A DNA stretch of 64,000 nt from positions 310,001 through 374,000 of the forward strand of contig CATKHK010000015.1 of the NCBI GenBank assembly GCA_949751835.1, written 5' to 3'. This stretch comes from Blepharisma japonicum. Lineage: Eukaryota > Ciliophora > Heterotrichea > Heterotrichida > Blepharismidae. Each line of letters starts with the position of its first letter. Within the stretch, counting starts at the first letter, position 1. Positions 11,613 through 44,384 of the stretch are shown in pieces. A program made the position numbers and the translations under genes. The notes beneath the pieces were generated by a model. That model was not told the DNA's origin, ran no database searches, and was given only the letters and a program-made list of their open reading frames with translations.

Positions 11613-11654
11613 GTTTATTACTTAATAATTTACTTATTAATAGAAAAGGATAAA

Positions 11655-20227: not shown

Positions 20228-20935
20228 TTAGATTGCTAAAGCTATTACTTTATTCACATTAGATCATGGCAAGCACACCTCCTCAATTGGGTCCATCTCA
20301 TCCAATCCTGTCAAGCTCTCACATGAAGAAGCTTCCTCAATAGGTTTGAAGCAAAAGCCGTCATTATTGAAAAGGCAGTCATCATCTTGAGTGTTTTGGT
20401 CACTCGGGGAGTTTCTACACAAACCGGTATAGTCAAACATTCCTGAGTTTCCCTTTTTCACTCTCCTGATGATGCTTTTCCATCTGTTTTTTACACTGTT
20501 TTCGGTTCTTCCAGGGAGGCATTTTGCGATTAGACTCCACTTGTTACCGAATTCCTTTTGCTTTTGAATAATTAAATCGTCTTCTTCATATGACCAGCCA
20601 CCCTTTTTAAGGGCTGGATTTAAATGATTGCACCACCTCTCCCTACATTGCTTTCCGTTTCGGACTGGCTTATTGTTATAGATTTTTTCGTTAAGCTCTT
20701 TGGCGATTTGGGCCCACTTCTTGCTGGATTTCGTGGGAAAGAGGCTTAAGAGCATATCATCTTCTTGTTGGGACCAGGGATGGCGCAAATGGCTGGCTGG
20801 TGCTACAGGCTTGTAAAGTGGATAAAACTTGTGCTTGACGTCGTCAAGTTTGCAAGGAATCATCCAGACCCCATCTTCAACCTTATAAGGGCTGCATGGC
20901 TGATGATGGTTGTTGTCTTGGTTTAAAAGTTCCAT
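20228..20935 (-). CDS. R2R3-type Myb DNA-binding protein (paralog 1)
   Basis: A 235-residue nuclear protein with two Myb repeats. R2 is at about residues 52-110 (HPWSQQEDDMLL ... RNGKQCRERWCNHLNP) and R3 at about 112-162 (GGWSYEEDDLII ... PGRTENSVKNRWKSI). The R2 linker contains an insertion relative to plant or animal c-Myb. The N-terminus has a block shared with its neighbour (HHQPCSPYKVEDGVWMIPCK). The acidic C-terminus (LTGLDEMDPIEEVCLP) may be an activation or interaction tail. At 20264-20266 the frame meets TGA just where the paralog has TAA; read as Trp it adds 12 residues before TAA at 20228. It regulates transcription by binding Myb sites; targets are unknown. Confidence 0.92.
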
Positions 20936-21435: not shown

Positions 21436-22107
21436 TTAAAGACAGAAATCTTCAATCGGATCGATTTCATCAAGCCCGAGCTCGATGAAAAGTATATCCT
21501 GATCCCTATTTCTGATAGAATAATTTTGGCTTTCCTCAGTATCTTCATGTGAATCTGTGCTCGAAGTATCAATACCCGCACCCGTGGCATGAGTAAGAAA
21601 CTCTAAGCTTTCACATTTTCTTTTCCTTCCAATACTTTTCCATCTATTTTTTACACTGTTTTCAGTTCTCCCTGGCAAGAATTTAGCAATAATGCTTCAC
21701 TTATTACCGATTTCTTTTTGCTTTATTATAATTATTTCGTCTTCTTCATTACTCCAGCCTCCCTTTTTGAGATCTGGGTTTAAATGATTACACCACCTCT
21801 CCCGACATTGTTTTCCATTTCGAATAGGAGTGTCGTTATGAATTTTTTGATTAATTTCCCGAGCTATAATAGTCCATTTTTTGGTAGTCTCGGTAGGAAG
21901 ATGACTTAAGATAATGTCATCTTCTTTCTTAATCCATGGATGTCGCAGATGGCCTTTTGAAACTCTCGGGTAAATGAGAGGGTAATACTTCTGCTTCATG
22001 GGATCTAGCTTACAAGGAACCATCCAGACCTCATCATCAAGTTTGTAAGGGCTAAGTAGTGGATGATGATTGCTGTCTTCGTTGATGTTTTCCATAGGAG
22101 CAAGCAT
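21436..22107 (-). CDS. R2R3-type Myb DNA-binding protein (paralog 2)
   Basis: A 223-residue tandem paralog of the Myb gene just downstream. It shares the N-terminal block (SPYKLDDEVWMVPCKLD), R2 (HPWIKKEDDIILSHLPT ... RNGKQCRERWCNHLNP), R3 (GGWSNEEDEIIIIKQKE ... PGRTENSVKNRWKSI) and the acidic end (GLDEIDPIEDFCL). The second conserved Trp of R3 is TGA at 21697-21699, while the first paralog has TGG there. The region between R3 and the tail differs most (Thr/Ser/Asp-rich here). Stop is TAA directly after FCL. Both genes are on the minus strand about 500 bp apart, a recent-looking tandem duplication with the DNA-binding residues kept, so overlapping targets are likely. Confidence 0.92.
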
Positions 22108-22776: not shown

Positions 22777-25700
22777 ATGGCAAATATCCTAAAACGAAAA
22801 CATGAGGACAAAGATCTTGATAATCTTCTAGCAATTTCTCGAAGGGAACAGATATATCGCTGCCTTTCTCAAGACAGAGTGAGCCATTGAAAGTCAACTC
22901 TCTTTGAAGTTTTCATTTTGCTTGAATCAACAGATGGAAGAAGGAGTAAAACAAACAAGCTCCAAATTTTTTTAAATTACTCAGCTCTGATTATAAGAAA
23001 ATTTCAACTTTTATCCTTGATTCTCTTGAATTATGATCTAAGTGCTTCGGTCACTTTAATGTCAATTTTCAATATGTCAATGATAGGAATAAGATTTGAT
23101 GCTTTAGCAGCAAAATTAAATACCCAAATCATTTATCTTGTCGCATTATTGTCAAACATTTATTTATGAGGATTTTTTATTTTACTCTTATACAGCCAAG
23201 TTTATTTTAAAAAAAAAATTCAAAGAAAAGTTGTTATTGTCTGTGCACAAGTTTTTGGGTGGCTCTGTGAGTATATTTTGCTCGTTCCTTACATCTATAC
23301 AACTACATTATATATCAAGTACTCTTTGATTTCATATAAAAGTGTAACTGAATATGGAGATATGAAATCTTCTGATCTAAACTGATTTTTTGTTTTACCA
23401 TTGATATTTGGAGCAGTGATTTTTCAATTTTTGATATATTTTAGACTTATTTATAATTGCAATCCTACATATTCGATCAAGCACAAACGAAGCAGGATGT
23501 ATTCTTTTATAGCCTTAAAAGATATTTTTGCGGAAGAAATCATAATTGTTTTGTCGCTTTTTCGTTTCAAATTTTATTTTGAGATGATTTGTACTTTAGT
23601 ATGTTTGTACATGATTTCTCAGTATGCTATATATTTTCCTTTTGTTACTGTTATTGATAATGTATTTGAAGCAAGCACATGAGTATTGCTAATATTTGGA
23701 ATAATTTCTTATATTATAGCTGATGGCTTGAGTGCTTTATACACAAAAACACTTTTTATTATACTTGTTTTTCCTCTTATTATAGTTTTATTTTATTATG
23801 CTATGAATTGATTCTTTAATAAAGCTAATAACTGTCCACTAAATGATCCCTATACTGCTGAACTTGAAATTCGCAAAATTATTATAAGAAAAATTAACTG
23901 CTTTGATAATGATACTATTGAGGTGATAAAGAGCATTTTTACAGATATAACAAAAAAGTTTTTATCCTTTAAACTTATCTTTATCTGAGAGTGCATATTC
24001 ACGATACATTTTAGACACAATAAGTCTTTGGCGTTACTCAAATTATCAAAAATTAACTTATCCTGCCCAGAACATTTAAAGATATATTACAGCAAAGATA
24101 GGCAAATTTCCAGACATTACAGCTGCCCAAACATAGAATGTGAATTTTTATTTTATTTTTATTACAAGAAACTCATAAACGAAGAAAAATCTGAAGATTT
24201 AGCTCTTTTGAGGTATCTAAAGGACATAAGTGAGCTTAAAAATCGTGATTTGGATGTTTTCTTAGAATTATGAAACATTTATCAAAAACTTTCAAGTATT
24301 TCAAAGCACTCTGCCCATGAAATAAATAAGGCTTGTGAAAGACTTATTAATTCAAAGCAAAGGCTTGAGGCTAAGGCTGAAAAATTGATAAAGAAATATC
24401 AGACTGATTCTGAACTCTTAGAAATATATGGATCATATATGTCAGAATTTTTGAAAGAAGAGAGAGGAGATATAATCCTAGCAAAAAGTAGAGCATTTAA
24501 GGAATATAGTGACATTGCGATGGAAAAAATAATGGGATTCAAATTTGAAAAAGGGGCTTCTATTATGGTTGTGAGTGGGATGTTTGGTTCAATTGGTGAT
24601 ATTTTATATCTAAATAATGAAATAGTTAATTTATTGGAATTAGAGTCTATTGATGATTATATCGGTACAAGCTTTATTCAGTTTATACCTGCGCCTTTTG
24701 ATGTTATGCACAATGATATTTTAAGAAAATTTTTAATTTTTGGTGACAAAATTGAATTATACAGGCCTCATCAATTTTTAATTACTTCCCAAGGCCACTG
24801 TGTAGAGGTCAGCATGCATTTTCGTCTTGTTTTTTATAAGCAAAATCCTTATTTTATAGCTGATTTTAACCCAAGAGGACACAGAAAAAATTTAATCCTA
24901 CACTCCCCGGATGGCTATATATATGCAATTTCGAAGGAGATTCAACAATACATTGGAAATCGAGAAGGCACCATTTTTGAAATCCTTAAAAACTTTATTT
25001 ACTACTATGAAAAATATGAAATTGGTCAATGCTTTGAATATAATGAAGAGTTTTCATGAACAATGATGAGGTTTAGGCTAACAATTGACGGTTATGCGCT
25101 AGAAGTTTTATATATAGCAGATTCACATGAATCCATAACTCCATTAGATGCATCACCTAAACCTAAATACCAAAACAAGTCTTATAACGAACCCACTCAA
25201 ATACCTGAATTTTCTATAGAAAACGAAGAAACTTATTTAAAAAACCATGTAGGTAGTAGCAATGCTGAAAATTCAACTGTTGCATCAAAAAAGAGAATTC
25301 AGATTAGAACGGAGTCTGCTAATAAGAGAATATTAGCAACGTGCAAAGTTTTAAATATGAACATAAGGATTGCTTTAGCTATTTTATTTGCCATTACTTT
25401 TACAACTATATTTCTAGAGAATAATTTTGTGAGAAGTTTAAAATTATATAATATGCTCAACCAAATGGCCTTGATGAGATATTTAGGAAATTCTGCTCTT
25501 GTTAATATAAGATCGCTGGATTTACTAAGCCAAGGATTTGAAACATCATCTTCAGAAGCTTATTATAGAAATTTGGCAAAAGTGAACTCAAATACTCTTC
25601 AGGACAATTTAATGCTTGTAAATGATGAAATAACCTCTTCCAGCTTTTTTCATGATGTGTTTTATACAAAGGTTTCTTTATCAGAAAAAATTGATAATTC

Positions 25701-26895
25701 TATAAGAATTACTGATGAAAATTTATTTCATTGCATTCAAATGTACGTTTCACATGTGAATACAATAATTAACACAAAGCTTGAAGATTTTCATACAATT
25801 CCTTCTGATTTTTATTTTGTCTATTATAACTTTCCTTCTATAATTTTGCATGCTTTAAACGATAGCGTATATACAACATCAACAGATTTTAAAGTACATG
25901 TAGAGGACACTTTTAGATTTCTAAAACTTTTCAAAATAGCATTTTTTATTCCTCCAATTGTTATCATTATTTTATCACTGCCAAGCATTATTGTACTTGA
26001 AAAAATAAACAAAGCAAATTGGCGCAGCTTTTCGCACATAAATGCCGATAGGCAATCAATTATAAGAAATAAACTTATTGATCGGCTTCATAATTTGCAT
26101 GGGATAGACGTTCATAATATCAAACTCAAATCCAATGGCAAAGAAAACTTTTCTCCTATTTGAAAAAATTTCATTATAAAAATCCTTTTATTGCAGGTTA
26201 TTAGTGCTCTTTATTATTTTGCTGTTTCATATGGATTTGAGGCTGATTTAAGTGAAAATTTTATCTATGAATCAAAATATATTTTTAACCATGGACTAAG
26301 AAGAATGCTTTCTGCGAATTCTTATTTCTGGGCAAGAGAGACGTTTTTAAATAGCGTAAATTCTTCTTTTATCAATTGGCTTGACGGTAATAAGATTGCA
26401 ACACCCTCATTTTCTGTAAAGCTTGAGACTGTCATTGAGGAGTATGAATTTCTTATACATACTTTAAGTTATGAAAAATACACAACATATTATAATGATG
26501 ATATGATTGAGCTGGAATTTGGAAATCCTTGCAAGATCATTGGAGAATCGATAACAAACTGCGATAGTAGCTATATTGGTGCGGGAACAGTTCCAGCAAT
26601 GAAAATTTATTTGGAAGATTTAAGAGATTACTCTATTTATAGCCAATCGAATTGGAAAAATATCAAAAAATTAGAAATACACTCATCTTTAATAGTAAAG
26701 TCAGCACAGTTTATGATGTTCAATTATCTTAATGCAACTGAAAGTAATATTGAAAACACTATAACAAACTTAACGATTTCTACAGTATTTTATTTTATCA
26801 GTATTGTGATCGCATCAATTATTTTGATTCTTGGCGCTGTTAACAAAATCAAAAAAGAATTAATTGGTAAAATCGAGATTTTGAAGTATTTTTAG
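22777..26895 (+). CDS. PAS receptor-like polytopic membrane protein, array member A
   Basis: A 1,372-residue protein in one frame with many TGA Trp codons. Order: cytosolic N-terminus (about 1-60); about eight membrane spans (65-340); a helical linker (400-560) whose GSYMSEFLKEERGDIILAKS resembles the TPR-like segment of Dictyostelium tiny-macrocyst TmcB/C proteins; a PAS domain (about 588-695; IGDILYLNNE, IPAPFDVMHNDIL); a second PAS-like unit (705-790; HSPDGYIYAISKEIQQYIG). Then four more spans enclosing two ectodomains. The second ectodomain holds SYFWARETFL and a Cys pair in GNPCKIIGES...NCDSSY. The C-terminus is GKIEILKYF followed by TAG. PAS modules sense ligands, redox state or partners, so a membrane sensor is likely, but no output enzyme is present. 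The family name is inferred from pattern; the array and architecture are read directly. Confidence 0.88.
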
Positions 26896-27575
26896 AAATA
26901 AAAACAGATGCCATATTGACGATTAAAATTTATTCTAATGTTTTAAAATATTTAATCGTAATGAACTTAGATTATATAATTACAGTTTTAATTTGTTACT
27001 ATCAAAGCATATATAAAAATTTAGAAAGTATATATGAAATTTTAAACTATAATTCTTTAAAAGCTTTAAATTTCAGTTTTATTAAGTTATGAAACATTTG
27101 ACACTTTTGGAAATAAATAAATAGATCAATATTAGATTTGAAGAGCTCATAACTCATTTAAAAATGCTTAATTTTGATTTCCACAATATTGGAGAAAAAG
27201 TCTCTCATTTTTTAATTTTGTGAATGTAAAACTTGAACTCATTTAAAATAGCTGATATGTTGATGCTGTTGCTAATACTTTAATATAAAAGAGACAATCT
27301 ATCAATATTTCCCTTCAATTTAAATTTCTATTTTCAATTATTCGAATTTTGTTTTAGCATCTTTCTCGACAAGTGAGACTAAACTGTAAGCTTTTCAGCT
27401 TGCTAAAATGAAAAATTATCAAACCTAATCAAAGTTCAAAATTCTCATTAAATCCATACTCAATTTCTTTTTTACAATAAAAACATAAATTTAGGTAAAA
27501 AATTAAATATATTTGTATCAGTACTCCATATTATCACAACATTTTCAACATTTATAATCATAATTATAAAACTTC
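26896..27575. other. Intergenic region between array members A and B
   Basis: 680 bp, strongly AT-rich. I see no coding frame or RNA gene; it should hold the 3' end signals of member A and the promoter of member B. Confidence 0.6.
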
Positions 27576-30500
27576 ATGGAAAGTATTCTTGAAAAAGACG
27601 AAGAAAAAAGGGACCTTGATAATTTAATAGCTATCACAAGAAGAGAACAACTTTATCATAGCCTTGCCCATGATAGGGGTCATCGATGAAAAACAACTCT
27701 TTTTGACGTCTTTATTAGGCTTGAATCAATCGATGGAAAAAGAAAAACAAATAAATATCAAATTTTGCTAAACTATTTAGGACTCATTGTAAGAAAATTT
27801 CAATTGTTGTCAATGGTGCTTTTTGATTATAATTTAGATCCGTCAGTCTCTTTAGTTGGAATATTTAATTCATTGATGTGTGGATTAAGATTTGATATCT
27901 TATCAATTAAATTAAACTTTGAAATTGGTTATCTTATGGTCTTATTATCAAGTGTTTATTTATGAGCTCTCAGCTTTATACTGCTTTATGTCCAACTATA
28001 TTTTAAAAAGAAGTTTTTGAGAAAATTGACAATAATATGTGAAGGGACTTTTGGTTGGCTTTGTGAATATATACTTTTTATTCCTTATATTTATACAACC
28101 TTATTGTACCTCAAATACTCTTTAAATTCAAATCAAAATGTAACTGAATATGGAGACATTAGCACTAACCATCTCCATACATATCTTGCATGGCCACTGG
28201 TATTCGGAGCCGTAATTTTCCAATTAATTTTATATTTCAGAACAATTTGTAGCTGCAATCCAACTTATTCGCTAAAAAATAAAAGAAACCGAATGTATTC
28301 TTTGACAACTTTAAAAGATTTTATAGCTCAAGAAGTCATTGTGATTTTATCTTTCCAAGGTTCCAGTTATTATTTTGAGCTTGTATCAGTAGTATCATCT
28401 TTATATATGCTTTCTCAGTATTCTTTATACTTCCCTTTTGTTACTATTTTCGATAATGCTTTTGAAGCCAGCACATGGCTAATGCTGATTTTTGGAGTGA
28501 TTTCTCATATTGTTGCTTATGACATTGGCGCTTTAAGTGCAAAGGCCCTCTTGATGATCTTTGTGTTTCCCTTAGCAATGCTTCTCTTTTATTTTTTTAT
28601 GCAGCGATATTTCAATTCTATAAACCATTTAACACAAGAGGATCCTTACGCAGTAGAACTCAAAATTCGCAGACTAATTAATGGGAAAAGCACTCAAAAT
28701 TTTAACAGTGATCTTCTTGAAAAAGTTAAAAAAATATACACTGAAGCAACCAAAAAATTTCTCTCATTCAAACTTTTGTTTATTTGGGAGAGTTTATTTA
28801 CTTTGCATTATAGAAATAACAAATCTTTAGCATTGCTCAAATTATCTAAAATCAATTTTTCATGCCCAAAACATCTGAAAATCTGGTATGATCAGGATCG
28901 ACAAATATCTAAACATTTCAGCTTTCCAAACTTAGAAGCAGAATTTTTATTTTATTTTTATTATAAAAAACTTATCAATGAAGAAAAATCTGAGGATCTT
29001 ATCCTTTTAAGATATCTGAAAGATATGAATGAATTTAAAAATAAAGATTTAGAAGTGACCTCAGAACTATGGAACGTTTGCAAGATGATTTCGAATATGT
29101 CCAAGTTTCATGTTAAGGTATTTAATCGAGCTTGCAAAAAGCTGATAAATGCAAAGCGCATTTTTGAAATAAAAGCTGAAAAAATGATTAAAAAATACCA
29201 GTCAGATTGCGATTTACTTTCGATTTATGGATCTTATATGGCAGAGTTTTTAGAAGAAAATGAAGGGAATTTGTTTTTAGCTAGAAGTCAGGCACTTAAA
29301 GAATCAAATGATGGAGGAATTGAAAAATTGACTGGGTTTAAGTACCAAAAAGGGTCAGCAATAATGGTTGTAAGCGGAATGTTCGGATCGATTGGTGATA
29401 TTTTATATCTCAATAATGATATTCTTGATTTGCTAAAAATAGATTGCATTGATAATTATATTGGGACAAGTTTTATTCAATTTATGCCTGCTCCTTTTGA
29501 TGTGATGCATAATGATATTTTAAGAAGATACCTAATTTTTGGTGACAAAATTGACTTATTCAGGCCTCACATGTTTTTAATTACCACAAAAGGCCACTGT
29601 GTTGAGGTAAGCATGCATTTCCGTCTTGTTTTCTATAAACAAATTCCCTATTTTATAGCAGATTTTAATTCAAGAGGACACAGAAAAAATTTAATATTGC
29701 ATTCTCCAGATGGCTACATATATGCAGTCTCCAAAGATATTCAAAGCTTCATCGGAAACCGGAAAGGAACCATTTTTGAGGTCATTAAAAATTATATCTA
29801 TTATTATGAAGATAATGATGTTGGAAAATGCTTTGAGTACAACGAAAATTTTTATGCTACAATGATGAGATTTAGTCTATCAATTGATGGATTTGTTTTA
29901 GAAGTGCTATATATAGCTGATTCTATTGAAGCTATTACTCCATTAGATAGTTCACCTCTTACTAAAACAAGATCTGCATCATTCAATGAATTCGGTGCTT
30001 ATAAAACTGATGTTTCTATGGAGCCTGACGAAAATTATTTAAAAAACACTATGGGGAGCAATCATACTTACGCATCATCAATTTTATCAAAAATTCAAGG
30101 AAGAAGAGAAATTGAAAAGGCTAATCTCAAAATATTAAAGTTATGCAGCGCTTTAAATATGAATATAAGAATCGCGATATTTGTGCTCTTTATTATTACC
30201 TTTATAACAATAATTTTAGACACTGCTTTAATCACTAACCTAAAAATGACAGATATGCTTGATGATCTCGCTTTTATGAGATATTTGGGGAATTCTCTTC
30301 TGTTAAATATAAGATCACTTCACTTGATTAGTCAAGGGTATGAGCCTGCATTTACTGAAGAGTATTATAGAAATGAAATCAAACAAAACTCAGAAACCCT
30401 TGAAAACAGCATAATTCTTATCAATGATGATATTTCTTCATACAGCTTTTTGCACAATATTTTCTCAGACCATTTTGTCTCTGTTTCCGAAAAAATTGAA

Positions 30501-31700
30501 AAAAATTTCATAAGAACCACAAATGAAAATTTGTTCCATTCTCTACAAGCTTACATTTCACATGCAAATGTTATAGCAAATACAAATTTAAAAGATTTTC
30601 ATACGATCCCGAATGATTTATATTATGTTTATTATAATTTTCCTACAGGAATTATAAGAACTTTAAATGAAAGCGTCCATACCATTTCCATTGATTACCA
30701 AGATCATGTGGAAAATACTTTTTTATTTTTGGAGGTTTTTAAGGGCACATTTTTTGTTCCTCCCATAATTATGATAATTTTATCAATTCCAAGTGTCATT
30801 ATATTAGAAAAAGCAAATAAAACGAATTGACATAATCTTTCACATCTAAATATTGAAAGGCAGCAGTATCTGAGAGATAAACTTATGGATAGGCTTAGAG
30901 ATTTGCATGGGATTGAAGTTGAACATATTGAGCCAAGACTTGGGAAAACCGAAATGTACTCTTCAGTTTGGAAAAAATTCATAATCAAAATATTTTTGCT
31001 ACAAATTATCAGCATTATTTATTATTGTGCTGCTTTATATGGATTTCAAGTCGAATTAAGTGAAATTTTTATTAAACAGTCAAAATATATTTTTAGCCAG
31101 GATTTAACAAGTATGCTTTCAGAAAATTCTTATTTTTGGGCAAGAGAAAATTATCTAACTGATTTAAATGAATCATTTATTGATTCAATAGGCAATAAGT
31201 CACAATTTCCTTCTTTAGAAGTTCAGCTTGAGAAAGTAATAGAGGAATATGAATATTTTGAAAACCTGATTACGTATAAAGATTTCAAAAGATTTTATAA
31301 TGATGATATGATAAATTTAGAAGTTGGAAATCCATGTGATGAGCTAGAAGATTCCTTACCAAATTGCAAATACAGCTATTTAGGAGTAGGAGTCACTGCA
31401 GCAGTGAAAATGTATTTAGAAGAATTAAGAGATTTTTCTGTTTTACAACGATCAAATTGAGAAAATATTATAAGATTAGAAAAATACACAAACTTAATTA
31501 TTAAATCCACAATTGTAATGATGCATGTTTACAATAACGAAATGGATGACAAAATTGATGAAAATATTATCAGCTTAATGATTACGACGCTAATATATTT
31601 TATTTGCCTAGTTATTGTATCGATTATACTTGTTTTTGGAGCTGTAAATAAAATCAAGAGAGAATTGATTGGAAAAATTGACATTTTAAAATATTTTTAG
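27576..31700 (+). CDS. PAS receptor-like polytopic membrane protein, array member B
   Basis: 1,374 residues, same layout as member A and its closest relative in the array. The N-termini share DLDNL(I/L)AI(T/S)RREQ, and the PAS2 region shares GHRKNLILHSPDGYIYA. About eight N-terminal spans, linker (GSYMAEFLEENEGNLF), PAS1 at about 588-695 (FMPAPFDVMHNDILRR, VEVSMHFRLVFYKQ), PAS2 about 705-790, then a span near 867-890 (IRIAIFVLFIITFITIILD), ectodomain 1, span (FFVPPIIMIILSIPSVI), cytosolic loop, span (LLQIISIIYYCAALYGF), ectodomain 2 with SYFWARENYL (Trp TGG at 31137) and GNPCDELEDSLPNCKYSY, last span, and GKIDILKYF before TAG. Loss of the frame at TGA codons makes it look like three pieces under the standard code. 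No catalytic domain is seen. Confidence 0.88.
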
Positions 31701-32338
31701 ATCAGTGGATTAAAAATAGTATATTATCTCAAAAACTATTTAAGTTCAATTTTTGATTTTGTATTAGTAATAAGATTTATTTTAATGATGAATTGAGCAA
31801 ATATTTTAATTCTTCTGAGGCTACTAACATTAGAGGCTATCATGAGTTTTCATGGGAAGCCATTTGATAAATTATCTCTGATTTTTTCTAATAATTATTT
31901 TCTTTTTGAAAGAATCTTAAAAATTGAAATAATCAAGAAAATTTAAGCTATATAAATAATCCCAAGTATGAAATAACTATTATTTATTTGCATTTCATAA
32001 CCTGATGAGATTGAGCAACAAAAAAAGGCTTTCTAAAATTATTTTCTCTTCTTTTGTGACATCATTAATAATTTCTTAAATATATGCCTTTTTAATATTG
32101 ATGATTTAGTTCTTTTTTACTTCCTTATTAATAAAAAAATAATTTCAAGAATCAAAAATTAAAATTCAATACTTATTATAGCTAATTATTGAAGTAAATG
32201 AAAGCTAAAATACTTTTAGTATATAATAAGAATTATAATTAACAAATATTACGATAATCTTCTTATCTTGATTCTTGCTCCACTCATGGTGAAATGATTT
32301 ATTAAATCAATATAAATAAAATCCATATAAAATCCAGC
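31701..32338. other. Intergenic region between array members B and C
   Basis: 638 bp, AT-rich. A 34-codon ATG-started frame at about 31842 has no support. Otherwise no coding or RNA feature is seen. Confidence 0.55.
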
Positions 32339-35300
32339 ATGGATTCAGAAGCAGAAAAAAGACAAGGGAGCGCTTCATTTAAATGGGACACATCAACATC
32401 TAAGCGTGATATTTTGTATAAAAGTCTAGAAGCTGAAAGAGCAAATCGTTTTAAAATCACTCTTTTTGATACGCTCATAAAGCTTGAAGGAAGCGATAAT
32501 AAAAGAAAAATAAGCAGAGAGCGCCTGATACTGACTTATCTTTCTCTATTTATAAAAAAAATTCAACTTTTATCAATTATACTCATAAACTTCGATACAT
32601 CTGACACTGTTACTCTTGAATCCTCCTTCAACGTATTGCTAAGGATTCTGAGATTTGATATACTGAGCATTAGTTTAAATATTCAATTAGAATTTTTGCT
32701 TGTTATGATAGGTGGCATTTGAGGTCTTTGCATAAGTTTTTGCATGATCTATTTTCAAATTTTTTATAAAAGGAAAATCGCCCTGAGGCCTGTTCTTTTT
32801 TTAACCAGCTTGCTGGGATGAATATTTAAACATATTTTTTGCATCCCTTATTTGTATAGTGTCGGGATTTTTGTAAAATATACCTTTTTTGATGAGGATT
32901 CTAAGGTTGGAGAATATGATAATGTAAGCGCCTCAAATTACCGGACATTTTTAGCTCTACCTTTAATGCTTGGAGTGCCAATTCTAGCTTTGAATATTTA
33001 TTTTAGGACAATTTATTATTGTAATCCCTGCTATACAGCAAAAATCAAGAGAAATAGAATGCATTCTTTGGTGACGCTTAAGGACAATTTCTTTCAATTT
33101 ATTATTGTTTTTGCTTCATTTTATCGCTCAGCTGTTTATTTTGATATTGTATGTGCTATTATTTCGATTTATATGATTTTACAATATATTTTTTATATGC
33201 CATATGTAGCAATGTTTGATAATGTATTTGAAGTTGATACTTGGACGATGGTTTTATTTGGAGTAATAGCATATCAGATGTCTATTTATATTAATACAAA
33301 TTCCGTGCGTGCTTTAATAATGATTTTTATCTACCCGTGTATAACATTTATCACCTATTTCTTAATGAATTGGTATTTTGACCGTGCTTTGAATTTTCCA
33401 TTGACAAACCCTTATAATGTTGAATTAAAAATAAGAAGGCTTATTTTTGGAAAAAAGCCCAGAAATTTTCAACACAATATAAGCGAAAAAATAAAAACTA
33501 TGTACAAAGACGCAACAAAAATATTTTTATCCTTTAAAATGCTATTTGTTTGAGAAAGCTTATTTTATTTACATTATGAAAGAAATAAATCTTTAAGCTT
33601 GCTAAAATTATCGAAAATTAATTTTTCCTCCAGAAAACATTTGAAGATTTGGTATCAGCTTCACCGCAACAAAGCAAGATACTACAGCTTTCCGAACTTA
33701 GAAGCTGAGTATTTATATTACCTTTATTATAAAATGCTTGTAAATGAAGAGTTTGCAGATGATTTAACATTAATAAGGTATATAAAAGACATAAACGTGC
33801 TGAACAGGAGAGATTTAGAAGTGACATGTGACTTGTGAGATGTCTATAGAAAATTATCAGAAATTTCTGAACATTCTTTGGAGTCAATCAATGAAGCATG
33901 CACAAAACTTGTCAAGTCAAAAAAAAATTTTGAAGAAAAAGCTGAAAAAATGGTCAGAAAGTATCATTCTGACCCAGCAGTTCTATCAGTATATGGATCA
34001 TATAAAGCTGATTTTTTGGAGCAAAACCAAGGAAACTTACTTTTGCAGAGAAGTAGAAGTTTAAAAGGTTCGAAAGACACTGGAATTGAAAAAATAACAG
34101 GGATGAAATATAGACAAGGAGACGCAATTATGGTGGTAAGCGGTATGCATGGAACAATTGGTGATATTTTGTATTTAAATAATGAAATAGCAAAACTCTT
34201 GAATATTGACTGCGTTGATGATTATATAGGAACCACATTTCGCCAATTTATCCCAGCTCCTTTTGATGTGATGCATAACGACATATTAAGGCGAGGGCTG
34301 ATTTTTGGTGAAAGAATTGAGCTTTACAGACCAAGTCTTTTTTTAATCACAACCCTAGGGCATTGTGTAGAAGTTACGATGCATTTTCGGCTTGTATTCT
34401 TTAAACAAATCCCATACTTCATTGCAGACTTCAATGAAAAAGGCCATAACACCAATTTAATTCTTCATTCCCCAGACGGCTATATATATGCTGCTTCCAA
34501 AAACATTAATCAGCTGATAGGTGATAGAAAAGGTACAGTATTTGAAGTTGTAAATAACCTTGCGAATTATTATGAGAATTATGACCCAGGAATTCCATTT
34601 GAATATCATGAAGATTTTAGCTGTTTTATGATGAGAGCTACACTAGTTATAGACGGATCACCATTAGTAGCATTATATGTAGCCAATGATTATGATTATT
34701 TTGCAGAGATGAATAATCCAGATGAAAATCCTCCAAAGCCGCATCATGTAGAGTCTTTTAATGACGGAGGCTATAAAACCGATATAACAATGGAGCCTGA
34801 AGAATTAAACTTAAAAAGTGGATTGGCAAGCTCTTTTACATATGCCTCAACTGTTTTATCGAAAATGGAAAAAAAATACGAAAAAGGAGAGAAGGAAAGT
34901 AGTAAAATTGCAAGGCTTTGCAATTCTATGAATGTGAATGTAAGAATTTCTAATGCAGCTTTGCTTGGGATTATTATTGCTACGATCATCATAGAAAGAT
35001 ATGTAGTTACTGAGCTGAAAATATCAAATTTTTTAAGCAATTTTTCTACACTTAGGTACTTAGGAAACAGCATATTGTTGGATTCAAGATCACTTGATCT
35101 TTTAAGTCAGGGCTATCAATTAGCATATGAAGAAGCTGACTATCGAGCTTCTCTTCAGTCACATATAAACGATTTTGAAAATACACTAATACAAGTCAGT
35201 GATGAAATATCGAAATATGACTATATGGATGATGTTTTTGTTACAAAAAAAGTTAAGACAACAGAAAAAACAGGTGAAAATTCTTTAAGGGTTATTAAAA

Positions 35301-36475
35301 CTAATTTATTCCAATCTCTGCAAAAAATTATCCAAGAAGGATACACAATCTATGGCTCTGAACTTTCTGGTTTTCCAGAAATTCAAGCAAGTCTATTTTA
35401 TATCTATTGGAATTTTCCTGGAGAAACATTTAGAAGCTTAAATAACAGTCTTAATTCTATTAATGAAGAAACACATAATCACATATTATCAGTTTTTGAG
35501 TTTTTGAAAATTTTTAAATTGACTGTTTTTATCCCTTCCATGCTTATTATTATTCTTTCTATTCCAAATCTAATCGCTCTTGAAAAAATCAATAAAGAAC
35601 ATTGAAATCAGCTTTCATCGCTCAATATAGAAAGACAAATAGCCTTAAGAGAAAAATTAACTGTAAGACTATCTGAATTCCATGGTATTCAAGTTGAAGA
35701 AATAGAGCCAAAACATGCAAAAAAGGCAGTTTATTCGTCTATTTGAAAAGCATTTCTATTCAAAGTACTTTTTCTAGAGCTCATCAGCATGATCTACTTC
35801 TTCGTTTCTATTTATGCCATCCAAAATAGTATAAGTGATGCCTTAATTTACCAGTCTAGCTACCGACTTAAATCAGGCTATAGAAGAGCTCTAACCATAT
35901 CTACTTTCTTCTGAACAAGAGAGCTTCTTTTATCAGATACTGCATCTTCTCTGATCAATACTCTTGAAAATAAAAACCCTTACCCTTCAGCTATAAAAAG
36001 TTTGCAAGCTTCAATTGAGGACTATGACTACCACGAGCATCTTATTGACTTCGGCTCAGCAACAAAATACTTTGAGCATGATATGTACAACTTACTGGTC
36101 GGGAATCCTTGCAGTGATGCTTTTGAGTCCATTCCTAATTGTCTCACAAGTTATATCAGCACAGGAATGTTGCCTGCACTTGAACTGTATTTGGATGATA
36201 CAAGGAATATTTTTGCTGATAATAGCTCAAACTGGCAAGACATTATCAAATTAGAGAAATACTCAGAATTAATAACTAACTCAGTAGGGTTGATGACAGA
36301 GAGTTTTATGAATTCTACTGATAGTAAGATTGATACTTATATGACTGACTTGACGATTACCACATTACTTTATTTTTTTATTTTGCTATTTGTTGTATTA
36401 TTACTTGTCTTAGCATCTGTTAATAAAATCAAGAATGGTTTGATTGGAAAAATTGAAATTCTCAACTATTTTTAA
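32339..36475 (+). CDS. PAS receptor-like polytopic membrane protein, array member C
   Basis: 1,378 residues, the same architecture as A and B but closest to D. C and D share the N-terminal block W/L-DTSTSKRD-LY-SLEA and the PAS2 block FNEKGHNTNLILHSPDGYIY. PAS1 is at about 590-700 (GTIGDILYLNNEIAKLL, IPAPFDVMHNDILRR, VEVTMHFRLVFFKQ). The linker between PAS2 and the next span is acidic and Pro-rich. Ectodomain 2 has FFWTRELLL, where the Trp is TGA at 35912, and the Cys pair GNPCSDAFESIPNCLTSY. It ends GKIEILNYF with TAA. Substrate, ligand and output are unknown; membrane location and PAS sensing are inferred from sequence. Confidence 0.88.
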
Positions 36476-36827
36476 GTTTAGATTATTCGTTAACTTATAA
36501 AGTTAAATTGTAATTTTGCTGATCAGTATTTCTTATCACTGGCTTTATAAATTCCTTTTTTTAAAATCCTTAATGAGCATTTCGATAAATATTTAAAATT
36601 TAAGTTTTTTAATATTTATCTAATAAAAATATAAATATTATTAAAGCTGAGCTAAATATTAAATAATACTGAATTATTCTTTATAATTTTTATCAAAGAC
36701 TAATTAAAAAGTTAAGAAATAAATAATATGCATTTTATATATAAGCCAATAAGATTTTATGTAAAGATCGTTTCCTATTTAATATAAAAATTATTATGAT
36801 TTTTAAACAATAATACAATAATTTAAC
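36476..36827. other. Intergenic region between array members C and D
   Basis: 352 bp, very AT-rich, the shortest spacer in the array. No coding frame or RNA gene is evident. Confidence 0.6.
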
Positions 36828-39800
36828 ATGGATTTAGGAATAGAAACGAAAAGAGGTCACAATTCATTTAAGCTAGATACATCCACATCGAAAAGAGATA
36901 AACTTTATCAAAGTCTTGAAGCCGATCGGGTTAATCATTTTAAAAGTGCTTTATTTGATGTATTTATTACTCTTGAGGGCTGTGACAACAAAAATAAAAT
37001 AAGCAAGCAAAGACTTGTAATAAACTATGCTGCGTTATTTATAAGAAAGCTGCAACTTTTATCCCTGATTTTAATAAATTTTGAAGCTACTTCAAATATA
37101 AGTTTAGAATCTGCTTTAAATTCCTTGCTAAAAGTTTTAAGATTTGATGTTATCTGTGCAGAGCTTAATTTTGGTGTTGGCTTTTTATTATTATTACTGA
37201 TTTCTATATGGTGTCTTGGAATAAGTTTTTTTATTGTTTATGCTCAGGCTTATCGAAAAAAGAATCATGATTTAAAATCAATTGTTTATATTATAAATTT
37301 ATTTGGTTGATTTTATGAGCATTTATTGTGCATTCCTTATTTATATAGCGTTGGGATATATTCAAAATATTCATTTTTTGTTAATAACTCAAGAGTTTCA
37401 GAGTATAACAATATTGATTCCAATGGTTTCAACTCATTTTTGTCAATTCCTCTTATTTTTGGGTCACCAATTTTAGTTTCAAATATTTTTTTTAGGACAA
37501 TTTACTATTGTAATCCTTGCTATACATCAAAACTTAAAAGAAATAGGTTGCACTCTCTTGTAAGTATCAAGGATCTTTTATGCCAACTTTTTATGATTTT
37601 TTCATCATTCTACAATTCAACGTTTCATTTCAATATGATTAGTGTGTTTATATCAATTTACATGATTTTTCAATATACTATATATTTGCCATTTGTATCC
37701 ATATTTGATAATGCATTTGAAGCAGGGACTTGAATAATAGTTTTGCTAGGAGTAATATCATATCAAATTTCAAGCGGGATTAATACTACTTCTATTCATG
37801 GATTGATTATAGTATTTATATACCCATGCATAATAATACTTTTGTATTATTTTATGTATTGATATTTTGATAGAGCTTTGAAATCAGTAAAGCAAAATCC
37901 ATACTCAGTTGAGCTGAAAATCAGAAAATTAATTTTAGGAATAAAGCCAAAAGATTTCACTAACAACCTTAGTGAGGAGATAAAAAAAATTTTTAAAGAC
38001 TCAACAAAAATATATTTATCGTTTAAAATGCTATTTGTATGAGAATGCTTATTTTATTTGCATTATGAGCGTAATAAGAATCTTGCACTTATGAAAATAT
38101 CCAAAATTAATTTTTCTTGCAAAAAACATCTAAAAATATGGTATCAGTCCAATAAAAATAAACTAGTCTATTACAGTTATCCCAATATAGAATCTCAATA
38201 TTTATTTTATTCCTATTATAAAAAACTTGTTAATGAAGAACATTCTGAAGATCTGGTCTTATTACGATACATCAGAGACATAAATTCCTTTCGAAAATTT
38301 GATTTAGAAGTATCATGTGAACTTTGGGATGTTTATCGAAAACTCGCAGATATATCAGCTCATTCTACAAAATCTATACAAAATACCTGCCTGAAACTCG
38401 GCAAGGCAAAAAAAAGATTCGAAGAAAAAGCAGAAAAAATGTATAGAAGGTATCATTCAGATCCTGAAGTTCTTTCAATATACGGATCCTATATTGCAGA
38501 TTTTTTAGGGGAAGAAGAAGGAAAACTGCTACTTCATAAAAGCAGAAGTCTAAAAGACTCAAAAGATCTGGGTATTCAAAAATTCACAGGATTTCAATAT
38601 CATCATTTAGGAGCATCAATTATGATAGTAAGCGGAATGTTTGGATCAATTGGAGATATTCTTTATTTAAACAAAGAAATTTGTGAACTTCTGCAAATAG
38701 AGCTTGTCGATGATTATATCGGGACAAGCTTTTGCCAATTTATCCCAGCTCCTTTTGATGTGATGCATAATGATATTTTAAGAAGAAACCTTATCTCTGG
38801 TGACAGAATTGAATTATATAGGCCAAGTCTTTTTTTAATCACCACATCAGGTAACTGTGTAGAAGTTACGATGCATTTTCGGCTTGTGTTTTTTAAGCAG
38901 ATCCCATACTTCATTGCAGATTTCAATGAAAAAGGCCACAATACTAATTTAATTCTTCACTCCCCAGATGGCTATATATATGCTGCATCTAAAAACATTA
39001 ATGATTTAATTGGAGAAAGAAAAGGGACAGTTTTTGAAGTTATACATAATCTTGCTAATTATTATAAGAATAGTAGCCTGTCTGTGCCATTTGAATATCA
39101 TGAAGATTTCGATTGTGTTATGATGAGAGTTAAGCTTGTAATTGATGGTTCACCATTAGAAGCTTTATATATTGCTCAGAGTTATGAATATTTTAAAGAA
39201 GGAAGCGGTTCAGCAAACCATTATGAAGAACATCAGCAAAGTGATTCGGTACAGGATATTGGATTTAAGACTGAGGTTTCTATAGTTACAAGCAAGTCTT
39301 TGATGAAAAGCAATATTGCAAGCTACTGCAAACATTCATCAACTTTACTGTCTAGGATAGAAAAAAAGAAAAAATCTGACAAAAGTGAATTGGTAAGTAG
39401 CCATATTACCAAACTTTGCAGCCTCCTAAATTTTAATATCCGATTTTCTTTACTTGTTTTGCTTTCTATAACCATCGCTACTTTAGTTACAGAGAAAATT
39501 ATTACAAATGAATTAAAAATGTCAAGTTTTTTAAACTCCTTTGATATCATGAGATTTTATGGTATTTCTATAATTCAAGATTCCAGATCTCTTAATCTAT
39601 TGGAAAAAGGATATTTATTATCTTACCCTGAGGAATTTTACAGATCTTCCCTTCAATCAAACCTTGAAAATTTTGAAAAAAGTTTAATGTCTGCAGCTGA
39701 TGACATGTATAAAAGAAGCTATATGCAAAATGTTTTTTCTATAACAAAAGTGTCATCCACTGAAAAATATGGCAATAATACTTTTCGTACTATAAAAATC

Positions 39801-40973
39801 AACCTATTTCAAAATTTGCAAAAAATAATTACGGAAGGCTCAATAATTTTAAACACAGAGTTTACAGATTTTCCTAAAATTAGCTCAAGTTTTGCTTATT
39901 TATACATAAATTATCCTTGAGAAACCTTCACCCATTTAAATAACAGCGTTTATCTATCACTAGAAGATATTAAAAATCATACAGAATGAACATTTGAGTT
40001 TTTAAGGAGTTTGAAGCTGACTTTTTTCATCCCTTCCTTATTAATCATAATTTTATCAATTCCAAGTATTATCAAGCTTGAAAAGATAAATAAAGAAAAC
40101 TGAAAATGCTTATCCAATCTCGATATAGATAGACAGATAACAATAAGAGATAAACTTGTAGATAGGCTCTATATCTTTCATGGTGTTCAAGTAGATGAAG
40201 TTGAGCATAAGTATTCTAAAAATGGAATTTTTTCTTCACATTGAAAATCATTTATGCTGAAAATTTTAATACTTGAAATATTAAGTTTGGGTTATTATCT
40301 TGCTGCTGTATATGGATTCCATGGGACATTAAAAGAAATTTTAATAACTCAATCTGATTTTATTTTTTATGCTGGAACCAGAAGAATGCTATCTTCGAGC
40401 ACATTTTTTTGAGCAAGAGAAATGTTTTTAGATACTAAAAATGACTCTCTTTCTTTAGTTATTGGGGATTATTACCCATTTCCGTTACCGCAAAAGCAGC
40501 TTCAGTCGATGATTGATGACTATCTTTATGCTCAATACTTTATTGACTATGGAAAACCCCATAGATATTACGATGACAGTATGATTAATTTATTAATCGG
40601 GAATCCTTGCGAATCAGATAATAAATTTGTGCAAGATTGCACCAAAAGCTATGTGAGCATGGGAATTAAACCAGCTATCAAACTTTATTTAAACGAGCTA
40701 AAAAGAGTGCCAAGCTATAATAAATCAGATTGGCAAGATATAAATGGTTTAGAAAAATATTCAAAAATCATTGATAATTCCACAATTTATATGCAGAAGA
40801 GCTATACAAACTCAACTGATTTAAAAATCGATTCTGAAATGGGTGATCTAATCATTTCGACACTTTTGTATTTCTTTTTCCTCGTGATTGTCTCTGTTTT
40901 ACTTATTCTATCAGCAGTAAGTAAAATAAAAAGAGATTTGCTAGGTAAAATTGATATCTTAAAATATTTTTAA
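36828..40973 (+). CDS. PAS receptor-like polytopic membrane protein, array member D
   Basis: 1,381 residues, last member of the array, sister to C. It has about eight N-terminal spans, linker (GSYIADFLGEEEGKLLLHKS), PAS1 (IMIVSGMFGSIGDILYLN; IPAPFDVMHNDILRR; VEVTMHFRLVFFKQ), PAS2, and a longer polar stretch before the next span (HYEEHQQSDSVQDIGFKTEV) than in A or B. Ectodomain 2 has FFWAREMFL with Trp as TGA at about 40410, and the Cys pair in GNPCESDNKFVQDCTKSY. The end is GKIDILKYF with TAA. In-frame TGA is dense in its membrane regions. As for the other members, it carries no kinase, cyclase or phosphatase domain, so signalling would go through partners or the channel-like membrane domain. 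Confidence 0.88.
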
Positions 40974-41297: not shown

Positions 41298-42128
41298 ATG
41301 ATTTCAACCCTTCTTGGTAGCTTGAAATTTGCATGGTATCAATGCCGTGCTCCTTATGTCAACGAATCTCGACTTCTCTTAGCCAAAGAACTTGGGTACA
41401 CCTTAGAACCAATAGATAGAAACCTATCAAGACTTATGGGCTTTGAAAATGAACCAGGTTCTCAAAGAATGTCAGCCCTTGAAGCTTCCTTCTTTCTTAA
41501 AGACTTTGCTGAGCAAGACCTTGCCTCTCTTGAAAACCGAGCTCCAGCTATTTTGCAAAAAGCTAAAGAAATAGACAAAAAATTGATTTTCTTGAGACTT
41601 TATTACCTCTTAGCGGATGGTGAATACAGAAATGTATCAACATTGAAGCCGTATATAAAAATTCACAAGGAAAGAGTATCAAAAGTTCACGAAAGCCTAA
41701 TGAGGCTTCTCCAATACACCCAAATTGAAGCAGTTCCTGTGGCTGCTGCTTCTAATACACTTTACGGAGCTGCCAAGCTTAACTTAAATGTGGACCCAGT
41801 TTTAAACTCAATTTTACTGCCAGTCCTCAGCCAGAAATATAAGTACCTCACTACAGTTGGGCTTGCTGAAACGCTATGGGCCCTTCAGAAGTTGAACTCC
41901 AAAAACGCAGATTTATCTAAGAAGATACTGACAGATTTAGGGCAAAGAGAAGTTAAATACATTCAAGTAGTCCCAGGATATTTCAATCATCTGCAGTTCC
42001 AGCTTGACCCAGATGCAAAAACTCCAAGAGAAGTCGGACTTTTAAAAGATGTGTTGATGATGACTACTGATTCAGATATCAAGAAGCAAATTGAAGAGTT
42101 TCTCAGCAAATATAAGCCTAACCAATAA
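41298..42128 (+). CDS. Alpha-helical repeat protein of unknown function
   Basis: A 276-residue soluble-looking protein. I do not recognise it with confidence. The C-terminal half has helical repeats (AAASNTLYGAAKLNLNVD; LAETLWALQKLNSKNADLS) with the A-A-x-x-L-x-x-x-A-x-L-x-L pattern of FASTK/RAP or octotricopeptide-type RNA-binding proteins. The N-terminus (MISTLLGSLKFAWYQCRAPY) is hydrophobic/basic and could be a mitochondrial presequence. Both Trp codons are TGG, and codons are more G/C-ending than in the array genes, a pattern shared with CCT2 here and often seen in well-expressed genes. A mitochondrial role is therefore possible but only inferred. The start is the only ATG near the conserved-looking N-terminus, with an in-frame TAA just upstream. 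Confidence 0.75.
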   Translation: MISTLLGSLKFAWYQCRAPYVNESRLLLAKELGYTLEPIDRNLSRLMGFENEPGSQRMSALEASFFLKDFAEQDLASLENRAPAILQKAKEIDKKLIFLRLYYLLADGEYRNVSTLKPYIKIHKERVSKVHESLMRLLQYTQIEAVPVAAASNTLYGAAKLNLNVDPVLNSILLPVLSQKYKYLTTVGLAETLWALQKLNSKNADLSKKILTDLGQREVKYIQVVPGYFNHLQFQLDPDAKTPREVGLLKDVLMMTTDSDIKKQIEEFLSKYKPNQ

Positions 42129-42347: not shown

Positions 42348-44384
42348 ATGTCCAAAGTCTTTCCTGGAACTAATAAAGAACTCTTCCTTTCTGGACCAAA
42401 AGACATAAGCATTTGAAAATTAAGGGCTAAAGAGCTTCAAAAGGAAGAGCCACGGCTCAGGAGCAACTCAGAATTCCAAAATGTGAGATGCATTATTTTT
42501 CCTGACGATCATTTTATGACTTTTTGGAGAGTTATTTTATTTCTCTTATTATCATATACGATTTTTATAACCCCATATAGGATAAGCTTCGTAGAAGTTG
42601 ACACTAAAAATTGGCAAATAGCAGATTTATTTGTTAATGCGCTGTATTTTCTTGATGTTTTGATCAATAGCGTTTTAGCCTATTATGACAGTGAAATGAA
42701 TGTAGTAACCTCCAATAAAAAGATTTTTATTAATTATTTGGCAGGATGGATGCTGATTGATTTATGCTCTTGCATTCCAATTGATATGATAACAGAAACC
42801 GATAAAAATTACTCTGGATTAGTCAGGCTAAGCAGACTTCCAAGGCTATACAAATTGGTGAAGCTGACCAAAATGATCCGTCTCGCTAAGTTTGGAAAGA
42901 TGAAAAATAAAGTTGCTAGGTATATGAGCAACCTATTAAAAATTGATGCTGCTCTAGAAAGGCTCTTTTGACTTATTATCACATTTCTCATCCTTATTCA
43001 TATTTTAGCTTGCTTGTGAGGATTTATAGGTGAAATCATGCTTGTTGAAACAGACAAAAATTGAATAATACAAGGAAATTTTCAAGATATAGAAAATTTT
43101 GACTTATATATTTGTGCAGTTTATTGAGCTGTCACGACATTAACTACTGTTGGATATGGAGACATTCATGCTTGGAATCTATATGAAAGGATAATTTCCT
43201 GCAGCGTAATGATTATAGGCATTTTTATTTATTCTACTTTTATTAGTTCTCTATCAAATATCTTGACAAATACTGATACCCTCGAATCTAAGCTGGATAA
43301 AAAAAGAGACATAATAAATAACTTATCAAAACAATATAACATCACTCCAGAATTTCATAACAGACTTATGGATGCTATTGAATATTATCAAAGACATGAC
43401 AGAACTGATTTAGACTCATTGATTGAGGATTTGCCAATTAACCTTAGAACACAGTTGCTTATTGTGATCTATAAGAAAATCCTCGAAAATAATGCATTTT
43501 TTGAAAATAAACAACCGCAGTTTGTGGCGTATATAGCACCACTTCTGAAACCTTTTAGAGTTGAAGAAGGAGACCATATTTACAAAGCTGGAGAAGCTGC
43601 TACTGATATTTATTTTATAGTGAAAGGAGAGGTTGTGATGGTAGCTGACTACGAAGATAATACCAAAATTCCTTTTAATATATTAAAAGAAGGCTATTTC
43701 TTTGGAGAAACTGATTTTTTACTCAATGAAGAGCGGGAGCGCTCATATAGTGTTAAAGCGCTAAAGAGAGCTGAACTATTGGTCCTCCCAGGCGACGACT
43801 TTGAAAATGCTTTAAGAAATTTTGAAGAAGACGGGTTAAGCGTGTTGATGATGGCGAAAGAGAGATACAATAGGCTGAAAGAAAAAGAGGAAGAAGCTAT
43901 TGAAGAATATAAAAAAAGAGGAAGAATCAAACGATTTCAAAGCTTTCCTGTCATGGCTCCTATTTCCAAAAAGGCGCTTTTAAAAATTATCCAGAAAACT
44001 CAAGAAGAAAAAGATGATGACAAAATGACAGTAAATGAAGAAGAAGATTTCAGGAAAGAAAATGAATTTTTAATTCCCGAGGGGGGTAAGGACATAGATA
44101 TGCTGGGGGAATCTTGAAAAAGCCAAAGTTCCCAAAGTTCTTTGAGTAGGAATAAATCTATTTTTAATTCAATTTTAGAAGATAGATTTGGAAATAGTGA
44201 AAAAGAAGACGAAACTGAGAAAAAAATAGAGAGATTGGAAGAAACTATTATGTGTGTCAAAGAAATAGTTATGAATTTGTGTAAAATGCATGGATGTCAA
44301 ATACCGAAAGGAATGATGGAATATAGTGCTCCAATTTCTAGAACTGGAAGCGCTATGAGTTATGATGCAAGATTAAATATTTAA
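42348..44384 (+). CDS. Voltage-gated-type K+ channel with cyclic-nucleotide-binding fold (CNBD family)
   Basis: A 678-residue channel of the EAG/KAT/HCN-CNG group. The six-span core begins near residue 59. S4 is basic (VRLSRLPRLYKLVKLTKMIR, about 164-183). The pore helix and filter read TLTTVGYGD (about 264-272), so it is K+-selective. A C-linker follows, then a CNBD fold at about 405-490 (EEGDHIYKAGEAATDIYFIV; GYFFGETDFLLNEERERSYS). The phosphate-binding cassette keeps FGE but has RSYSVKA where R-(S/T)-A is usual, so cyclic nucleotide binding is uncertain. The C-terminal tail has a Ser-rich stretch and a possible short coiled coil. Several Trp in S5 and pore are TGA. It would conduct K+ across the surface or ciliary membrane. 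Confidence 0.93.

Follow-up and report, generated by a model that had tools for sequence, protein, structure and literature searches.

In the oxygen sensor FixL of Bradyrhizobium and Sinorhizobium, a PAS domain carries a heme-ligating His, and the heme PAS protein DosP (EcDOS) of Escherichia coli is a phosphodiesterase of cyclic di-GMP. FixL-like heme PAS proteins (FXL) also occur in Chlamydomonas; no paper with FXL1 turned up in the literature searched. To our knowledge, the receptor-level basis of chemical and gas sensing in ciliates is largely unknown. Here we describe four tandem genes, A to D, for large membrane proteins of the ciliate Blepharisma japonicum. They lie in a stretch of 64,000 nucleotides (contig CATKHK010000015.1, here C15, positions 310,001 to 374,000 of the forward strand), hereafter the window, and searches beyond it covered the 45.2-Mb genome. 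A-D are probably multi-input membrane sensors that lack an enzyme of their own and combine a FixL-type core with divergent outer domains. Their first PAS-like segment, PAS1, has a fold like that of FixL and a His aligned with the heme-ligating one, but it stands in a wholly different membrane context; no histidine kinase was found in A-D, and inspection by eye showed no conservation of distal pocket residues, the O2-contacting Arg among them. Unlike DosP, A-D have no cyclic di-GMP phosphodiesterase domain.

The array and its reading frames

With TGA read as Trp (translation table 4) for all four genes, the array consists of four intact open frames, head-to-tail on the + strand and spanning 22,777-40,973. 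Coordinates and lengths match exactly those given in an earlier reading made from the letters alone (the sequence-only reading).

22777..26895, + strand: gene A, 1,372 amino acids, single open frame, 9 TGA codons
27576..31700, + strand: gene B, 1,374 amino acids, single open frame, 4 TGA codons
32339..36475, + strand: gene C, 1,378 amino acids, single open frame, 7 TGA codons; source of the structure models
36828..40973, + strand: gene D, 1,381 amino acids, single open frame, 9 TGA codons

The intergenic gaps A-B, B-C and C-D are 680, 638 and 352 bp, and the genes were fragmented when TGA was taken as a stop. Twenty mononucleotide shuffles of the window yielded longest open frames of 119 to 220 codons. 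Identity to A is 59% for B, 44% for C and 45% for D, and full-length counterparts of A and B were found in Blepharisma stoltei, namely P0006 (90% identical to A) and P0005 (90 to 100% identical to B by segment). The shuffle control, the mutual identity and these counterparts together indicate that the array genes are not chance open frames. C and D had no counterpart among the B. stoltei proteins returned, which may reflect loss, gain or a gap in the set.

Relation to the TmcB family

Pfam and NCBIfam scans of A-D gave nothing above cut-off. TPR_TmcB (PF25474) was not found in A-D themselves at an E value of ≤1 (Pfam hmmscan), and a PDB sequence search with A alone gave a single chance match (E value of 0.81). 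A Pfam PAS match in D (E value of 0.2) was below cut-off, its position agreeing with PAS1. Weak matches to DUF7442 (A and B), ALS2CR8 (A), PRK11836 (A) and pcnB (D) were discarded as scattered. A six-frame genome search with gene C produced 27 matches, comprising A-D themselves, seven pieces located on contig C75 with 45 to 58% identity to gene C, and 16 distant matches with 21 to 26% identity (E values of 1.6e-27 to 1.8e-12). The distant matches mostly cover 600 to 750 N-terminal residues, with one spanning 1,229 and one 264. Among eight distant paralogs scanned, six passed the cut-off for TPR_TmcB and three passed a PAS-type cut-off, at the same places. The co-linear alignments comprised 26 N-terminal and 19 C-terminal stretches. 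Because co-linear paralogs pass the Pfam cut-offs, the TmcB and PAS assignments of A-D are right by homology, and A-D are, as judged from sequence, divergent relatives of the TmcB family. The TmcB-type helical linker of the sequence-only reading, and the profile search against the TmcB and PAS families that it proposed, were thus borne out through homologous paralogs above the cut-offs, with A-D themselves below them.

The homology of A-D to the TmcB/TmcC family (PF25474; B. stoltei P0009 to P0012 and P0014, and the ENA protein P0013) extends over the N-terminal membrane block, the linker and PAS, and also over the C-terminal half in rows reaching that far. In contrast to the rest of the family, A-D have a linker with a loop of some 20 residues, missing from the distant rows, and they form a well separated branch. 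Protein searches for relatives returned B. stoltei proteins and the one unnamed ENA protein, P0013; these searches scored only candidates sharing enough short words and therefore say nothing on absence from other ciliates. The TmcB name is that of a tiny-macrocysts gene; no account of TmcB function, or of a TmcB-type family in ciliates, was found within the literature collection searched.

PAS1 and its candidate heme-ligating histidine

An AlphaFold model of gene C residues 1-800, built on a 26-row alignment, had a mean predicted local distance difference test score (pLDDT) of 77.8 and a predicted template modeling score (pTM) of 0.74. It placed membrane helices at 60-348, a helical stretch at 358-577, then PAS1 at 596-700 and a weaker PAS-like part up to 782, in support of the layout that had been proposed.

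24541..24891, + strand: PAS1 of gene A, from the family profile
29337..29690, + strand: PAS1 of gene B, from the family profile
34106..34453, + strand: PAS1 of gene C, residues 593-702 of the model, with a FixL-like fold
38598..38948, + strand: PAS1 of gene D, from the family profile
34436..34699, + strand: PAS2-like segment of gene C, low confidence, from model and profile

The gene C model and a fold search showed that PAS1 has the PAS fold (residues 591-702), as anticipated for residues 588-790. Of the two PAS-like modules claimed from the sequence, PAS1 stands firm by model and homology, but PAS2 is weakly supported: its pLDDT blocks were 50 to 72, its profile gave weak matches among PAS proteins to AHRR (0.074) and CLOCK (0.89) only, and Pfam PAS_9 was found in 2 of 13 members (best E value of 0.018). 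PAS1 is the most conserved segment of the proteins (74 to 82% among A-D and 96 to 99% in three species pairs). FixL was both its best profile match and its best VIA match, and a His aligned with the heme-ligating His of FixL was present in each of the four genes.

24709..24711, + strand: His645 codon of gene A
29508..29510, + strand: His645 codon of gene B
34274..34276, + strand: His646 codon of gene C
38766..38768, + strand: His647 codon of gene D

In the gene C model, this residue sits in helix 642-656, the position of the F-alpha proximal His. It was kept in all 26 rows of one alignment, A2, which includes the window genes, and in 17 of the 19 rows of another, A6. Because the rows of A2 and A6 had been chosen by similarity, the list of 150 TPR_TmcB loci was sampled by taking 50 (every odd rank from 1 to 99, which leaves its lower third outside the sample). 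His was found in 28 of these 50; the others have Leu (8), Phe (8), Ile (3), or Asn, Arg or Thr (1 each), and two of the Phe rows match the PAS1 profile weakly. The loci were then combined with the 26 rows of A2 and, after removal of 3 duplicates, placed on a 73-row PAS1 tree with the His column excluded, a quick tree in which 24 of 70 inner branches are open. The His/non-His split required 3 changes on this tree against a mean of 19.0 for shuffled labels, with none of 500 shuffles as low. A clade of 19 rows (support of 92; 11 from contig C38, 5 from C57 and 3 from elsewhere) has His in none, while 51 of the 54 rows outside it have His, which ranks sixth there in conservation among 115 columns. 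Since members of the non-His clade still match the family profile (43 to 88 bits), PAS1 seems able to dispense with the His. A control profile made from 16 of the 19 rows matched neither FixL nor DosP at an E value of ≤10, the best match being BMAL1 (0.09). Contigs C38 and C57 were seen to carry TmcB-PAS arrays whose sampled PAS1 domains mostly have Leu, Phe or Ile at this position.

From these comparisons the conserved His is read as a putative ligand-binding residue, with heme as the most specific guess for the ligand; that PAS1 of A-D binds heme through this His is plausible, and we put it forward with reserve. An alternative, which we regard as close to evenly balanced, is that PAS1 is FixL-like but heme-free and that it dimerizes, relays or binds something else, while the ectodomains sense outside ligands. 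It shares the sensor reading and differs in the heme step. Non-heme PAS domains rank close behind in the fold search, from row 15 onward; the profile of the window's own clade does not match FixL; and 22 of the 50 sampled paralogs are without the His. However, the rest of the family keeps the His over long branches, and the profile of 16 rows from the non-His clade is missing the FixL match.

Membrane block, linker and output

32516..33382, + strand: N-terminal membrane domain, gene C residues 60-348, eight or nine helices in the model; from hydropathy and loop charges
33389..34108, + strand: cytosolic helical linker, gene C residues 351-590, homologous to TPR_TmcB (PF25474) of the paralogs; from alignment and model

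A plain hydropathy scan gave no clean span count in the N-terminal block, and the eight or nine membrane helices of the gene C model agree with the earlier count of about eight. Loop charges put the N-terminus, linker, PAS and C-terminal tail inside and the ectodomains outside, with two inner loops neutral and uninformative. The absence of an enzyme output, also claimed earlier, was upheld in that the Pfam scan of A-D revealed no enzyme domain, including no nucleotide cyclase domain; likewise, complete or partial scans of four more long genes of TmcB type found no further recognized enzyme domain. A cyclase as a fused output was considered and rejected, as none of the genome's 87 cyclase matches is close to a TmcB match, the nearest to any of the 150 TmcB matches being 30 kb away, start to start. 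Many of the 87 cyclase domain matches are paired about 1.5 kb apart by eye, suggesting that many enzymes carry two such domains.

It was considered whether the eight-span block might itself be the effector, an ion channel or transporter gated by the linker, PAS and ectodomains. We think this rather unlikely, though compatible with A-D being sensors. The block has no assigned fold, no enzyme domain was found in A-D, and a PAS domain is reported for KCNH channels (PMC3598652). However, no channel or transporter family was matched by Pfam or PDB profile, and the fold search hardly probed the membrane block, its lists being filled by PAS.

The C-terminal half and its ectodomains

A second AlphaFold model, of gene C residues 835-1378 (19-row alignment; pLDDT of 85.2, pTM of 0.79), was nearly all helical. 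Its long helices bear two helical ectodomains, each between two spans, in accord with the four spans and two ectodomains predicted from the sequence.

35009..35473, + strand: ectodomain 1, gene C residues 891-1045, between two spans
35819..36337, + strand: ectodomain 2, gene C residues 1161-1333, helical bundle, two Cys in each of A-D

A Foldseek search with the C-terminal half gave no match at an E value of ≤0.001. The bacterial four-helix ligand-binding domains of McpN, PcaY_PP and Tar are likewise helical ectodomains between two membrane helices, but they have no sequence match to those of A-D, which carry two in tandem and in which no HAMP or signaling domain was found. The likeness may be convergent.

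The ectodomains vary from copy to copy, and together with the conservation of PAS1 this supports the idea of a conserved core with more divergent outer parts. Varying ectodomains, and the missing account of TmcB function in the literature searched, would also fit structural or mating-recognition surface proteins with relic PAS parts. We consider this improbable, because PAS1, as the most conserved segment, is the opposite of a relic. Blepharisma and Stentor have strong light responses, but a LOV-type light sensor behind these heterotrich photoresponses is very improbable despite the PAS fold and a weak profile match of PAS1 to the LOV domain of YtvA (E value of 0.48), since the flavin-Cys motif (GRNCRFLQ) was not seen by eye in the PAS1 alignments, and a nearby Cys is present in some rows only and offset by one place.

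Genome-wide scale and phylogeny

At least 150 PF25474 matches were found in the genome, 140 of them above cut-off; with 150 of 174 candidates scored, the count may be low. None of the window genes is in this set. The loci are clustered, with 120 of the 150 in runs whose neighbors are ≤12 kb apart, 97 in runs of at least five, a longest run of 18 and a median spacing of 5.1 kb. The window array is one twig of this very large family, probably of sensors, that has grown by tandem duplication. In a full-length tree, which has long outgroup branches, A, B and one C75 gene form one clade in which each gene pairs with a B. stoltei protein (support of 100/100). The tree did not resolve the branching order of C, of D and of a third group, in which two C75 genes join B. 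stoltei P0008. One gene of the C75 cluster is thus of the A/B type, and others are closer to C and D. Of the two pairs claimed earlier, A-B is recovered, together with the C75 gene, but C-D is not resolved in the tree.

Two of the C75 paralogs are interrupted. In one (L036, 5077-6549), an insert of about 1.47 kb contains, by eye, a reverse-transcriptase-like stretch, as from a non-LTR (long terminal repeat) element. The other (L035, 707-5136) is broken into three open frames, whereas P0008, its counterpart in B. stoltei, is uninterrupted; the breaks could stem from short inserts, from retained eliminated DNA or from decay.

Proposed mechanism

The idea of a sensory repertoire gains support from the conserved sensor core, the diverging outer parts and the large tandem family. 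As multi-input sensors, A-D may bind outside ligands through their ectodomains, much as the four-helix domains of bacterial chemoreceptors do, with the long ectodomain helices crossing the membrane toward the tandem PAS core. PAS1 would bind a small ligand, most specifically heme via the conserved His, providing an internal gas or redox input. The outside and inside signals could then be summed in the PAS core, and the TmcB linker and eight-span block would either relay the sum of these signals to partners or themselves constitute the output, such as a conductance. Tandem duplication would supply copies whose ectodomains and membrane parts diverge while PAS1 changes least, yielding a repertoire of sensors.

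In its fullest form, which we offer as a tentative and distinctly uncertain proposal, the family would consist of tandemly amplified receptors with a FixL-type heme PAS between an eight-span block and two chemoreceptor-like ectodomains, in which one large clade gave up the heme His and became purely ligand-driven. Such receptors would give a eukaryote its equivalent of the chemoreceptor repertoires of bacteria, built around the sensing of oxygen or nitric oxide. The roughly 150 loci, with their conserved sensor core and diverging other parts, would be a candidate receptor repertoire, and the His leads to a clear prediction, namely that within this one genome PAS1 should carry heme in the His-bearing clades and lack it in the His-less one.

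Genes around the array

A channel gene with Ion_trans and cyclic-nucleotide-binding domains (42348-44384, +) begins about 1.4 kb past the end of the array and shares its strand, but it is only a neighbor of the array; an unassigned gene (41298-42128) stands between the two. Directly upstream are two adjacent Myb DNA-binding genes (20228-20935 and 21436-22107, -). Farther to the left, an open frame (3-11621, -) runs past the left edge of the window and so has a minimum length of 3,873 codons; it encodes ankyrin repeats and the beginning of a ubiquitin-ligase domain of the HECT type.
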